A stretch of 64,000 bases of DNA, taken from positions 1,922,001 through 1,986,000 of the forward strand of contig NZ_CP094473.1 in assembly GCF_023347535.1 (NCBI RefSeq), read 5' to 3'. Below are positions 12,084 through 45,806 of this stretch, one piece after another. A model generated the notes under the pieces. It was given only the letters and a program-made list of their open reading frames with translations, had not been told where the DNA came from and ran no database searches. The translations under genes and the position numbers were made by a program. This DNA comes from Faecalibacterium sp. HTF-F. GTDB lineage: Bacteria > Bacillota > Clostridia > Oscillospirales > Ruminococcaceae. How positions within the stretch are numbered: the first letter of the stretch is position 1; each line of letters starts with the position of its first letter.

Positions 12084-12224
12084 ACCCTCTCATTCATCTC
12101 GCGTCCGCTCGATGCCAGCTCCACCGAGTGGGGGAGCTTTTTTGTTGTGAAGAAAAACTTTTCCTCTTGATGTGGAAAAGCTCGCCCTTCGGGAGAGCTG
12201 TCGCCGTCAGGCGACTGAGAGGGT
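12084..12224. repeat. Palindromic repeat element, copy 1 (141 bp)
   Basis: The ends are ACCCTCTCA (12084) and TGAGAGGGT (12216-12224), inverted copies of each other. Inside each end is a GCCAGCTC/GGGAGAGCT-type hairpin followed by T or A runs. The same architecture is found at 44706-44865, and related copies at 19657 and 15243. The element lies between dapL and dapF and contains no gene. Confidence 0.75.
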
Positions 12225-19651: not shown

Positions 19652-19656
19652 CAGAA

Positions 19657-19787
19657 ACTCCCCCAGTCACCTTCGGTGCCAGCCCCCTCGGAGATGGGGC
19701 CTTTGGCAAAACCGCAGGCCTTCCCTCTTCGCCAGAGGCTCCCTCATTGAGGGAGCTGGCAAACCCAAAGGGTTTGACTGAAGGAGT
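19657..19787. repeat. Palindromic repeat element, copy 3 (131 bp)
   Basis: The ends are ACTCCCCCAGTC (19657) and GACTGAAGGAGT (19776-19787). Inside are GCCAGCCCCCTC..GGGGCCT and CTCCCTCATTGAGGGAGC hairpins and a GGCAAACCCAAAGGGTTTG hairpin. It is a relative of the elements at 12084 and 44706 and begins 5 bp after a stop codon. Confidence 0.7.
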
Positions 19788-19855
19788 CCCCCGTGAAACA
19801 ATCTTCGCTTCCCATCACCGAAAGTTGAAACTTTCTCCCTCATCTGCCCTTTTCG

Positions 19856-42813: not shown

Positions 42814-43763
42814 TCAAAGAAATTCTGGAACAGCTGGCTCCGCTGGACGCCCAGATCGCCGCACTGAAGGGCCGCGGCAACGACATGGAAGCCATCACGG
42901 CTCATGCGTCCGAACTGGCTGAGCTGGCCGTGGAGGAGGACGAGATCCTGCGCACCTGCGGCCCGCTGACCGCTGAGGACCGGGTATTTCTGGCCCGGCA
43001 TCCGGAACGCCCCCACATCGATGAGATCGTGAACGCATTGTTCACCGATTTCTTTGAACAGCGCGGCGACCGTCAGTGCAAGGAGGACCCTGCCATTCTG
43101 GGCGGCATCGCCCGTTTTCACGGATTGCCGGTGACGGTCATCGGCCACCGGAAGGGCGCTACGCTGGAAGAAAATCTGGCCTGCAACTTTGGTATGCCGG
43201 GGCCGGAGGGCTACCGTAAGGCTCTGCGCCTGATGAAGCAGGCGGAAAAGTTCGGCCGCCCCATCATCACCTTTATCGACACCCCGGGCGCTTACCCCGG
43301 AAAGGACGCCGAGGAGCGTGGTCAGGGCGAAGCGATCGCACGGAACCTGATGGAAATGAGCGGCCTGACTGTGCCGGTCATTGCCGTCGTTACCGGCGAA
43401 GGCTCTTCCGGCGGCGCGCTGGCTCTGGGTGTGGCAAACCGCATCCTCATGCTGGAAAACGCCGTCTACTCTGTCCTCAGCCCCGAGGGTTTTGCCAGCA
43501 TCCTGTGGAAGGACTCTTCCCGCAGCGGCGAAGCCTGTGAGATGATGAAGCTGACGGCGCAGGATCTGTACCGCGGCGGCATTGTGGAGCAGGTGATCCC
43601 GGAGCCGGTGGGCGGCGCACAGCGCGGCCATGCCGCCCTGTTTGAGACGCTGGACGAAGCACTGCGTGCAAACCTGAGAGAGCTGTGCCGCATGAGCGGC
43701 CGGGCGCTGGCCGATCAGCGCTATAAAAAATACCGTCAGATCGGAGAAACGAGGAACCCATGA
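42810..43763 (+). CDS. accA: Acetyl-CoA carboxylase carboxyltransferase subunit alpha
   Basis: A 317-residue AccA, partner of AccD. It starts with a helical region ([15 protein letters not shown]) and has the carboxyltransferase blocks [20 protein letters not shown] and [13 protein letters not shown]. The start ATG at 42810 has AGGAGGAAAG upstream and overlaps the accD stop; the accA stop in turn overlaps the fabH start. The biotin carrier (AccB) and biotin carboxylase (AccC) needed for the full enzyme are not in this window. Confidence 0.96.
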
Positions 43764-44722
43764 ACGCTGCTTTGCGCTTGATAGCCACCGGCGGGGCACT
43801 GCCCGGCCGGACTGTCACGAACGAAGATCTGAGCCGCATGGTGGACACCAGCGACGAGTGGATCACCACCCGCACCGGCATCCGTGCCCGGCACTGGTGC
43901 GGCGAGAACGAATCCGCTGCCACCCTTGCCATTGCTGCCGCAAAGCAGGCGCTCAGCCGCAGCGGCCTTGCCCCGGCAGACATCGGCTGCTGCATCTGTG
44001 CCACCCTTTCGGCACCGGATGCGACCCCCAGCGTTGCCTGCCAGATCCAGGCAGCGCTGAGCCTGCCGGAAAACTGCCCGGCGCTGGACGTGAACGCGGC
44101 CTGCTCCGGCTTTTTGTATGGTACCGCCGTGGCACGCGGGCTGCTGGCAACGATGGGCGGGCGGTATGCCCTTGTGGTGGGCTGTGAAGCTCTCTCCCGC
44201 CTGATAGACCCGACCGACCGTTCCACCTGCGTATTGTTCGGCGATGGTGCCGGTGCGGCCGTCTTTGAGCTGACTGCAGCCCCTGTGCCCTTTGCCGTAA
44301 CACTGGGTGCCCGGGGCGATGCCGCCATTCACGCCGGCGGGCCCAGCCGCGAAGGCTCTGCCCCCATCACGATGGATGGCAAAGCGGTGTTCCGCTTTGC
44401 AGTGGATGCTCTGCCCAGATGTCTGCACGCTGTGCTGGAAGAAACCGGCAAAACACTGGATGAACTGGACTGGGTGGTCTGTCATCAGGCCAACAGCCGC
44501 ATCATCGACCACTGCGTGCGGGCGCTGAAGGCCGACCCGGCAAAGTTCTACAAGAACATGGAGCGCCACGGCAACACCAGCGCCGCCAGCATCCCGGTCG
44601 CCCTCAACGAGCTGGCCGAGAGCGGGCAGCTGAAGCCGGGCCAGCTGCTGGCCTGCATCGGCTTTGGCGGCGGCCTGACATGGGGCGGAATGATCGTGGA
44701 ATATGACCCTCTCAGGCGCTGA
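43760..44722 (+). CDS. fabH: 3-oxoacyl-ACP synthase III (KAS III)
   Basis: A 320-residue FabH, which starts fatty-acid synthesis by condensing acetyl-CoA (or a branched primer) with malonyl-ACP. The catalytic triad is Cys115 in [10 protein letters not shown], His in [10 protein letters not shown] and Asn in RHGNTSAAS. The start is ATG 43760, overlapping the accA stop. The last codons (YDPLRR) and the stop lie inside the palindromic repeat that begins at 44706, so the repeat encodes the C-terminus. Normal FabH proteins end close to this point, so function is probably unaffected. Confidence 0.96.
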
Positions 44723-44865
44723 CGCGCCAGCTCCCCCAAAGGGGGAGCTTTATGGGCGGGTAGGGTCAGCGTGCTTTCCAAGAGAAGGTCTAGCTGACAG
44801 AAAAGCAGAAAAAAGCTCCCCCTTCGGGGGAGCTGGCAATGCCTTACGGCATTGACTGAGAGGGT
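44706..44865. repeat. Palindromic repeat element, copy 4 (160 bp), inside the fab operon
   Basis: The termini ACCCTCTCAG (44706-44715) and CTGAGAGGGT (44856-44865) are perfect inverted copies. Next to each is a strong hairpin (AGCTCCCCC..GGGGGAGCT). The left end encodes the last fabH codons and the right end supplies GAGAGGG just upstream of the fabK ATG at 44871. It is the largest copy of the family and the only one inside an operon here. Confidence 0.85.
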
Positions 44866-44870
44866 TTTTA

Positions 44871-45806
44871 ATGAAACTTTTAAATGAAATTCTAGGCACA
44901 AAATACCCCATCATTCAGGGCGGTATGGCCAACATCGCCACCGGCGAGTTTGCCGCTGCCTGCTCCAATGCGGGAGCGCTGGGCATCATCGGTGCGGGCG
45001 GCATGGATGCCGACACCCTGCGCCAGAACATCCGCCGCTGCAAGCAGTTGACCGACAAACCTTTCGGCGTGAACATCATGCTCATGCATCCGCAGGCAGA
45101 TGTTTTTGCGCAGATCGTGGTGGACGAGGGCGTGTCCGTTGTGACCACCGGTGCAGGCAACCCGGGCAAATACGTGCCCATGTGGAAAGCTGCCGGCATC
45201 AAGGTGATCCCGGTGGTGGCCGCTGCGGTGCTGGCAAAGCATCTGGAACCGCTGGGCATCGACGCCGTCATCGCCGAAGGCACCGAGAGCGGCGGCCATG
45301 TGGGCGAAATGACCACCATGGCGCTGGTGCCGCAGGTCGTGGATGCGGTCAGCATTCCGGTCATTGCGGCAGGCGGCATCGCCGACGGCCGTCAGCTGGC
45401 AGCAGCTCTGGCTCTGGGCGCCTGCGGCGTGCAGGTGGGCACCTGCCTGCTGGCAAGCGAGGAATGCCCCATCCACCCCAACTACAAAGCCGCCCTGCTC
45501 AAGGCCAAGGACAGCGATACCATCGTGACCGGCCGCAGCGTGGGTGCGCCGGTGCGGGTGCTGAAAAACCGCATGAGCCGCGAATATGTCCGGCAGGAAA
45601 ACGCCGGTGCCGACAAGATGGAGCTGGAAAAGTACACCCTTGGCAGCCTGCGCCGCGCCGTGTTTGAGGGCGACACCACCACCGGAAGCCTGATGGCCGG
45701 TCAGGTGGCAGGCATGCTGCACGAGGTGCGCCCGGTAGCGGATATTCTTGCAGACCTGTGGGACGGCGGGAGGCAGCGCATTGCCGCGCTGAGCACCGAA
45801 TGCTGA
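44871..45806 (+). CDS. fabK: FMN-dependent enoyl-ACP reductase II
   Basis: A 311-residue FabK, reducing trans-2-enoyl-ACP with NAD(P)H and FMN in the last step of each elongation cycle. It begins LNEILGTKYPIIQGGMANIA, and has GIIGAGGMDADTLR, the catalytic-histidine block EGTESGGHVGEM and PVIAAGGIADGRQLAAALALG, all characteristic of the FabK/nitronate monooxygenase fold. The ribosome-binding site GAGAGGG comes from the end of the repeat element. The stop overlaps the start of the next gene by 7 bp. There is no FabI in the window. Confidence 0.95.
   Translation: MKLLNEILGTKYPIIQGGMANIATGEFAAACSNAGALGIIGAGGMDADTLRQNIRRCKQLTDKPFGVNIMLMHPQADVFAQIVVDEGVSVVTTGAGNPGKYVPMWKAAGIKVIPVVAAAVLAKHLEPLGIDAVIAEGTESGGHVGEMTTMALVPQVVDAVSIPVIAAGGIADGRQLAAALALGACGVQVGTCLLASEECPIHPNYKAALLKAKDSDTIVTGRSVGAPVRVLKNRMSREYVRQENAGADKMELEKYTLGSLRRAVFEGDTTTGSLMAGQVAGMLHEVRPVADILADLWDGGRQRIAALSTEC

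Follow-up and report, generated by a model that had tools for sequence, protein, structure and literature searches.

A palindromic repeat inserted between fabH and fabK in Faecalibacterium sp. HTF-F may couple fabK to fabH translation

Here we describe a complete 160-bp palindromic element of type A (44706-44865, plus strand) that lies between fabH and fabK in the window, the 64,000-nucleotide stretch of Faecalibacterium sp. HTF-F DNA analyzed here. We propose that a derived insertion of this repeat also brought an arm-pair switch that couples fabK to fabH translation, a combined reading that we regard as evenly poised between right and wrong. In the mRNA, GAGAGGG in the right arm would pair with the left arm and conceal the fabK Shine-Dalgarno. 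A ribosome ending fabH would then cover and unzip the left arm, freeing GAGAGGG, and fabK would remain coupled to fabH translation despite a 148-nt separation. Were this so, a single step would be enough for a mobile repeat to equip a core operon with a ready-made translation switch, with coupling by stop-start overlap replaced by long-range coupling.

The acc/fab operon runs accD, accA, fabH, fabK, a second fabK-like gene, fabD, fabG, fabF, and fabZ by NCBIfam, with gene starts and stops taken from a home-made gene caller. fabH occupies 43760-44722 on the plus strand (NCBIfam), with its stop at 44720-44722, and fabK (TIGR03151) follows at 44871-45806 on the same strand, just under the curated NCBIfam cut-off (433.4 against 453.1 bits). 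Overlaps of 4 nt join accD to accA, accA to fabH, the second fabK-like gene to fabD, and fabD to fabG; fabK and the second fabK-like gene overlap by 7 nt, and gaps of 15 nt and 3 nt follow fabG and fabF, respectively. The 148 nt between fabH and fabK form the sole large gap in this otherwise tightly packed operon, in agreement with a first-pass annotation of the DNA that had described the element as splitting an operon of nearly all-overlapping junctions.

The same annotation had placed the element at 44706-44865, and both the coordinates and the ends were confirmed: 160 bp bounded by a left arm ACCCTCTCAG (44706-44715), translated within the fabH end, and a right arm CTGAGAGGGT (44856-44865). 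On the left, these ends enclose a hairpin I with the sequence GGCGC-TGAC-GCGCC (44715-44728), which is a hypervariable module, and a hairpin II consisting of AGCTCCCCC-AAA-GGGGGAGCT (44729-44749). On the right, hairpin II (44814-44834) is terminator-like in the minus-strand reading and is followed by hairpin I, CAATGCC-TTAC-GGCATTG (44837-44854); all are given on the plus strand. The inner 26-nt arms of the 160-bp element are 96% complementary. For RNA spanning 44700-44880 the folding energy is -102 kcal/mol, whereas 200 shuffles average -60 (z -10.6). A search of 44400-45200 with Rfam 15 gave no match at or above the gathering score and four sub-threshold microRNA-like matches.

As first described, the element starts within the end codons of fabH, whose frame runs through the left arm to give the protein tail YDPLRR*. 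The element had been credited with PLRR and the stop. On comparison with relatives, L-R-R-stop (44711-44722) is element-derived, and the P codon, together with the D codon before it, may be native because congener G329, without this insertion, ends fabH in YDPARF*. At the opposite end, five bases separate the element from the fabK ATG (44871), and the TTTTAA preceding this ATG is perhaps native too. GAGAGGG (44858-44864, plus strand), 6 nt 5' of the ATG, was the only Shine-Dalgarno-like stretch seen by inspection just 5' of fabK. This putative Shine-Dalgarno lies in the element, which had been proposed as the source of the apparent fabK ribosome-binding site.

A FabK query matched in 35 of 41 genomes and in 6 of 6 further ones, with several of the matches weak or fragmented. 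The junction count given here covers the 17 congeners, including the window's own genome, with the close FabK type (84-100% identical). Outside the count are more distant loci as well as nine congeners and G037 with FabK 71-74% identical, at whose junctions no CCCTCTC motif was seen by eye; with these nine congeners included, the tally of junctions with an element is 6 of 26. Two of the 17 junctions hold this element (own and G010), four hold other elements, and 11 are empty. The own and G010 copies, each with the fabH tail YDPLRR*, differ at 10 of 160 positions and are identical in stop position and in both arms. G021 and G334 carry another element, of type B, 3' of an intact fabH stop, and the type B element of G329 sits at another position. 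In G005, an element remnant is translated as the fabH end, YSPLSHG*. Among the empty junctions, G003, G006, G023, and G330 end fabH in VEYKG* and have a 5-nt gap, the gap is 2 nt in G016 and 4 nt in G007, and fabH and fabK overlap by 4 nt in G331, G012, G020, G024, and G011.

This comparison, which the first-pass annotation had suggested, shows that relatives lacking the element exist, and among the 17 junctions it finds the same sequence only in the own genome and G010; presence of that sequence here in all distantly related species was not seen. Because only two of the 17 junctions carry it, 11 are empty, and the others hold different elements, the insertion at fabH-fabK is, by this comparison, derived and lineage-specific. 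Position and type, considered without a tree, indicate at least four events among the six occupied junctions. Judging from the empty relatives, fabH and fabK probably nearly touched or overlapped before the insertion, and the element appears to have replaced the native fabH stop and fabK Shine-Dalgarno. Identity between the own genome and G334 is 95.8% downstream of the junction and 83.9% upstream, a drop that suggests recombination near the element. The junctions of relatives, whether empty, filled by the same element, or filled by another, form a natural experiment in which the proposed switch is directly testable.

Free folding predicts a probability of being unpaired for GAGAGGG of 0.0001 in the own genome and 0.0002 in G010; the motif is predicted to be hidden because it pairs with the left arm, which forms the last fabH codons. 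With a 27-nt mask placed around the fabH stop, this probability rises to 0.25 (own) and 0.27 (G010), whereas five control masks of equal width give 0.0001-0.0007 and 0.0002-0.0013, respectively. A folding run with a one-base offset in the own genome gave a rise from 0.003 to 0.17 there and from 0.000 to 0.27 in G010. These are thermodynamic values that ignore co-transcriptional folding and helicases. The hairpins next to the ends had been thought strong enough to affect the mRNA, and in these predictions the effect would stem less from them than from the ends pairing across 140 nt. The 16S tail motif is present six times, and its duplex with GAGAGGG has an energy of -7.4 kcal/mol, against -5.8 at the empty junctions of G003 and G006. 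For 392 predicted own genes the median is -9.2, and GAGAGGG is stronger than 23% of them. This low rank speaks against a switch, as does the opened state, in which GAGAGGG is still only about 25% free; reduced fabK expression could also be the simple outcome of so stable an arm pair and its hairpins. The identity of the arms between the own genome and G010 is not evidence of site selection, since zero changes in 20 arm positions are expected about 1 time in 4 given 10 changes in 160 (by arithmetic), and the arms are conserved family-wide.

Genes that use an element end as an apparent Shine-Dalgarno were also sought elsewhere, which gave 28 candidates judged by eye. Beside fabK (own and G010), only two genes were kept, which we take, from their protein starts, to be ruvA and truA (own genome 291610-291712 and 298504-298718, in L120), and position 6554 of L134 is a further candidate. 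Masking raises the unpaired probability for truA from 0.0004 to 0.13, with 0.0002 in three controls. For ruvA, at the same spacing, the unmasked value is 0.19 and masking yields 0.49, a value that one of its three control masks reaches as well. In the folding model, truA appears to repeat the opening pattern of fabK, and ruvA, which fails its control, lacks a specific opening. A broader idea treats the repeats as a family of portable cassettes for translational coupling, whose copies would persist in operons because the left arm lies within the footprint of the ribosome terminating the upstream gene, in line with the placement of 23 of 23 short-gap type A copies given below. The opening of the arm pair would keep the downstream gene coupled, and the right arm itself would serve as the Shine-Dalgarno in some cases (fabK, truA, ruvA); we think this generalization unlikely.

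The own genome is a single contig of 2.78 Mb. An element search returned at least 89 matches (40 of 108 first-look candidates scored), and the arm ACCCTCTCAG has 126 exact copies (56 forward and 70 reverse) against 0 for the reversed control. The element is a dispersed repeat, as had been supposed, and its absence elsewhere in the genome was not seen. For family anatomy we used 553 kb around copies, approximately 20% of the genome and a non-random sample picked for element content, in which a script detected 88 candidates with paired ends as well as 28 exact cores that were unpaired. We kept 74 of the 88 as full-length, dropping 10 that were short and 4 with an internal module. These comprise 50 of type A (ends A..T), 18 of type B (ends G..C), which have longer conserved ends, and 6 mixed. 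The sample contains 142 half-units with the pattern CCCTCTC[A/C]G - hairpin I - CA[G/C]CT, and its two variable positions covary: A goes with G in 118 half-units and C with C in 23, with one exception. Hairpin I is hypervariable, with 99 distinct sequences among the 142, and its outer positions are paired at a fraction of 0.82 versus 0.68 for mixed halves (maximum 0.70 of 200). The coupled letters of CTC[A/C]G...CA[G/C]CT around a variable hairpin I are reminiscent of the guide/cleavage pairs of single-strand transposases. No clear excess of target-site duplications was found among the 50 type A and 18 type B copies for lengths of 2-6, 8, and 9 bp at offsets of 0-13. At 12084-12224, in a minus-strand tandem gap, the window itself holds a second type A copy, one of its arms mutated, and at 19656-19788 it holds facing half-units of a related palindrome family with the ends AACTCCCCCAGTC and GACTCCTTCAGTC.

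Within the genus, copies of the core CCCTCTCAGTC range from 0 to 103 per genome, and 24 of 31 genomes have it. Its distribution in the class is patchy, with any copy in 49 of 291 genomes of an even sample, and it is abundant there only in the own genome and in six of seven genomes of one distant genus. In this genus, g41, the six genomes (G056, G090, G145, G235, G277, and G313) have 39-75 copies each and their congener G190 has 0; elsewhere in the sample, two genomes have 11 and 8 copies and the rest at most 3. Such copy numbers in a genus outside the window's order, next to a congener with none, make horizontal spread of the core motif possible. Viral contigs contain 33 stretches with a half-unit, matches to 15 unannotated fecal phage records cover no more than 34% of the element, and a plasmid collection gave no element match. 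We also considered a RAYT/Y1 partner. Y1_Tnp (Y1 transposase) matches occur in 11 of the 31 genus genomes, with none in arm-rich G021, G334, G331, G006, and G017 (the last 84% complete), and no exact element core lies within 1.5 kb of the single Y1_Tnp gene of the own genome. These results do not support such a partner in the own genome or the genus.

The 74 full elements of the own genome are placed in tandem gaps in 60 cases and elsewhere in 14, and none lies inside a predicted gene. Among tandem type A copies, 23 of 41 are in gaps of at most 60 nt after subtraction of the element length, and for all 23 the distance between upstream stop and left arm is -17 to +11 nt. We do not claim a preference for sites just 3' of stop codons because, by reasoning rather than by a computed null, short-gap insertion that spares the downstream Shine-Dalgarno would give nearly the same placement. 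Ten sites, drawn from 823499-833499 (10 kb) and 535499-549999 (14.5 kb) of the own genome, were compared with up to 15 relatives. Most have different members of related palindrome families, or none, across species, which suggests rapid turnover in operon gaps. One site has an element in the own genome only, and another has two anchorable relatives, both empty. A further site is empty in G006 and G330 and filled in G023, where the 9-bp AAAGAATAC flanks the insert on both sides; G334 is also filled, with one base different in the left AAAGAATAC repeat. Flanks at the remaining sites are less cleanly resolved.

This abundance in operon gaps and absence from predicted genes would fit a selfish insertion that is simply tolerated and has no regulatory role. 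On this view it is by chance that the element ends in GAGAGGGT; this end would serve as a Shine-Dalgarno, and fabK expression would be about as before. The different occupants of most of the ten sites fit such an account, as do the at least four separate kinds or positions of element hosted by the fab junction, and 7.7% of random 18-mers have an anti-Shine-Dalgarno energy at least as strong as that of GAGAGGG. However, the sequence directly implies the arm-arm pairing that conceals the Shine-Dalgarno, and this pairing is nearly complete by prediction. For a neutral outcome it would have to be undone by helicases or by coupled translation, and coupled translation is the switch itself. We consider a neutral insertion possible and somewhat doubtful.

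The very stable structure could alternatively make the element a site of polarity or processing, where an RNase III cut or attenuation of transcription or translation would lower fabK and the genes downstream relative to accDA-fabH. A consensus scan of 44500-45000 found a terminator-like hairpin formed by the element on the minus strand, but on the coding strand it detected neither a promoter nor an intrinsic terminator, and we rate this explanation as quite improbable. A last possibility, that the element is no insertion but an ancestral regulatory structure conserved in the fab operon, is hardly credible: G010 shares it, and four other relatives have some junction element, but 11 of 17 have none, the other junction elements differ in type or position, and the family is scattered over the genome.

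Palindromic repeats that add codons to genes or lie just 3' of stops are known from Rickettsia palindromic elements and from the REPs near E. coli stops. MITEs such as Correia and ERIC are short, non-coding, high-copy, intergenic sequences with terminal inverted repeats. The element is likewise short, non-coding, high-copy, and intergenic, with terminal inverted repeats and no long reading frame, but its 68 tested copies show no clear excess of target duplications, with one 9-bp repeat in one filled/empty comparison. By anatomy, we would call the element REPIN/MITE-like, with a REPIN-like layout. In REPINs, REP hairpins form inverted doublets that RAYT transposases presumably move (PMC3116915). 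The family is similar in that its half-units bear hairpins, face each other across a spacer, and are extragenic and dispersed, with some half-units unpaired. It differs in having no exact core within 1.5 kb of the one Y1_Tnp gene of the own genome and no Y1_Tnp match in several element-rich genomes, and in a hairpin I that is hypervariable with kept pairing where a REP has a conserved sequence. Because these two defining features, an adjoining REP-associated tyrosine transposase and a conserved hairpin sequence, were not found, we do not file the element as a REPIN.

The proposed switch resembles UTNI-type coupling, in which a long-range structure is opened by translation of the upstream gene (PMC6728339). 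The fabK initiation region is similarly predicted to pair with the fabH reading frame and to be released when translation breaks the pairing, so that a Shine-Dalgarno paired with an upstream frame is present at fabK by prediction only. The difference is that both pairing partners at fabK would have arrived with one mobile repeat, again by prediction. The class of mechanism, a translation-dependent switch, is known, and the hypothesis advanced here is that fabK would be a case in which a mobile repeat built it.
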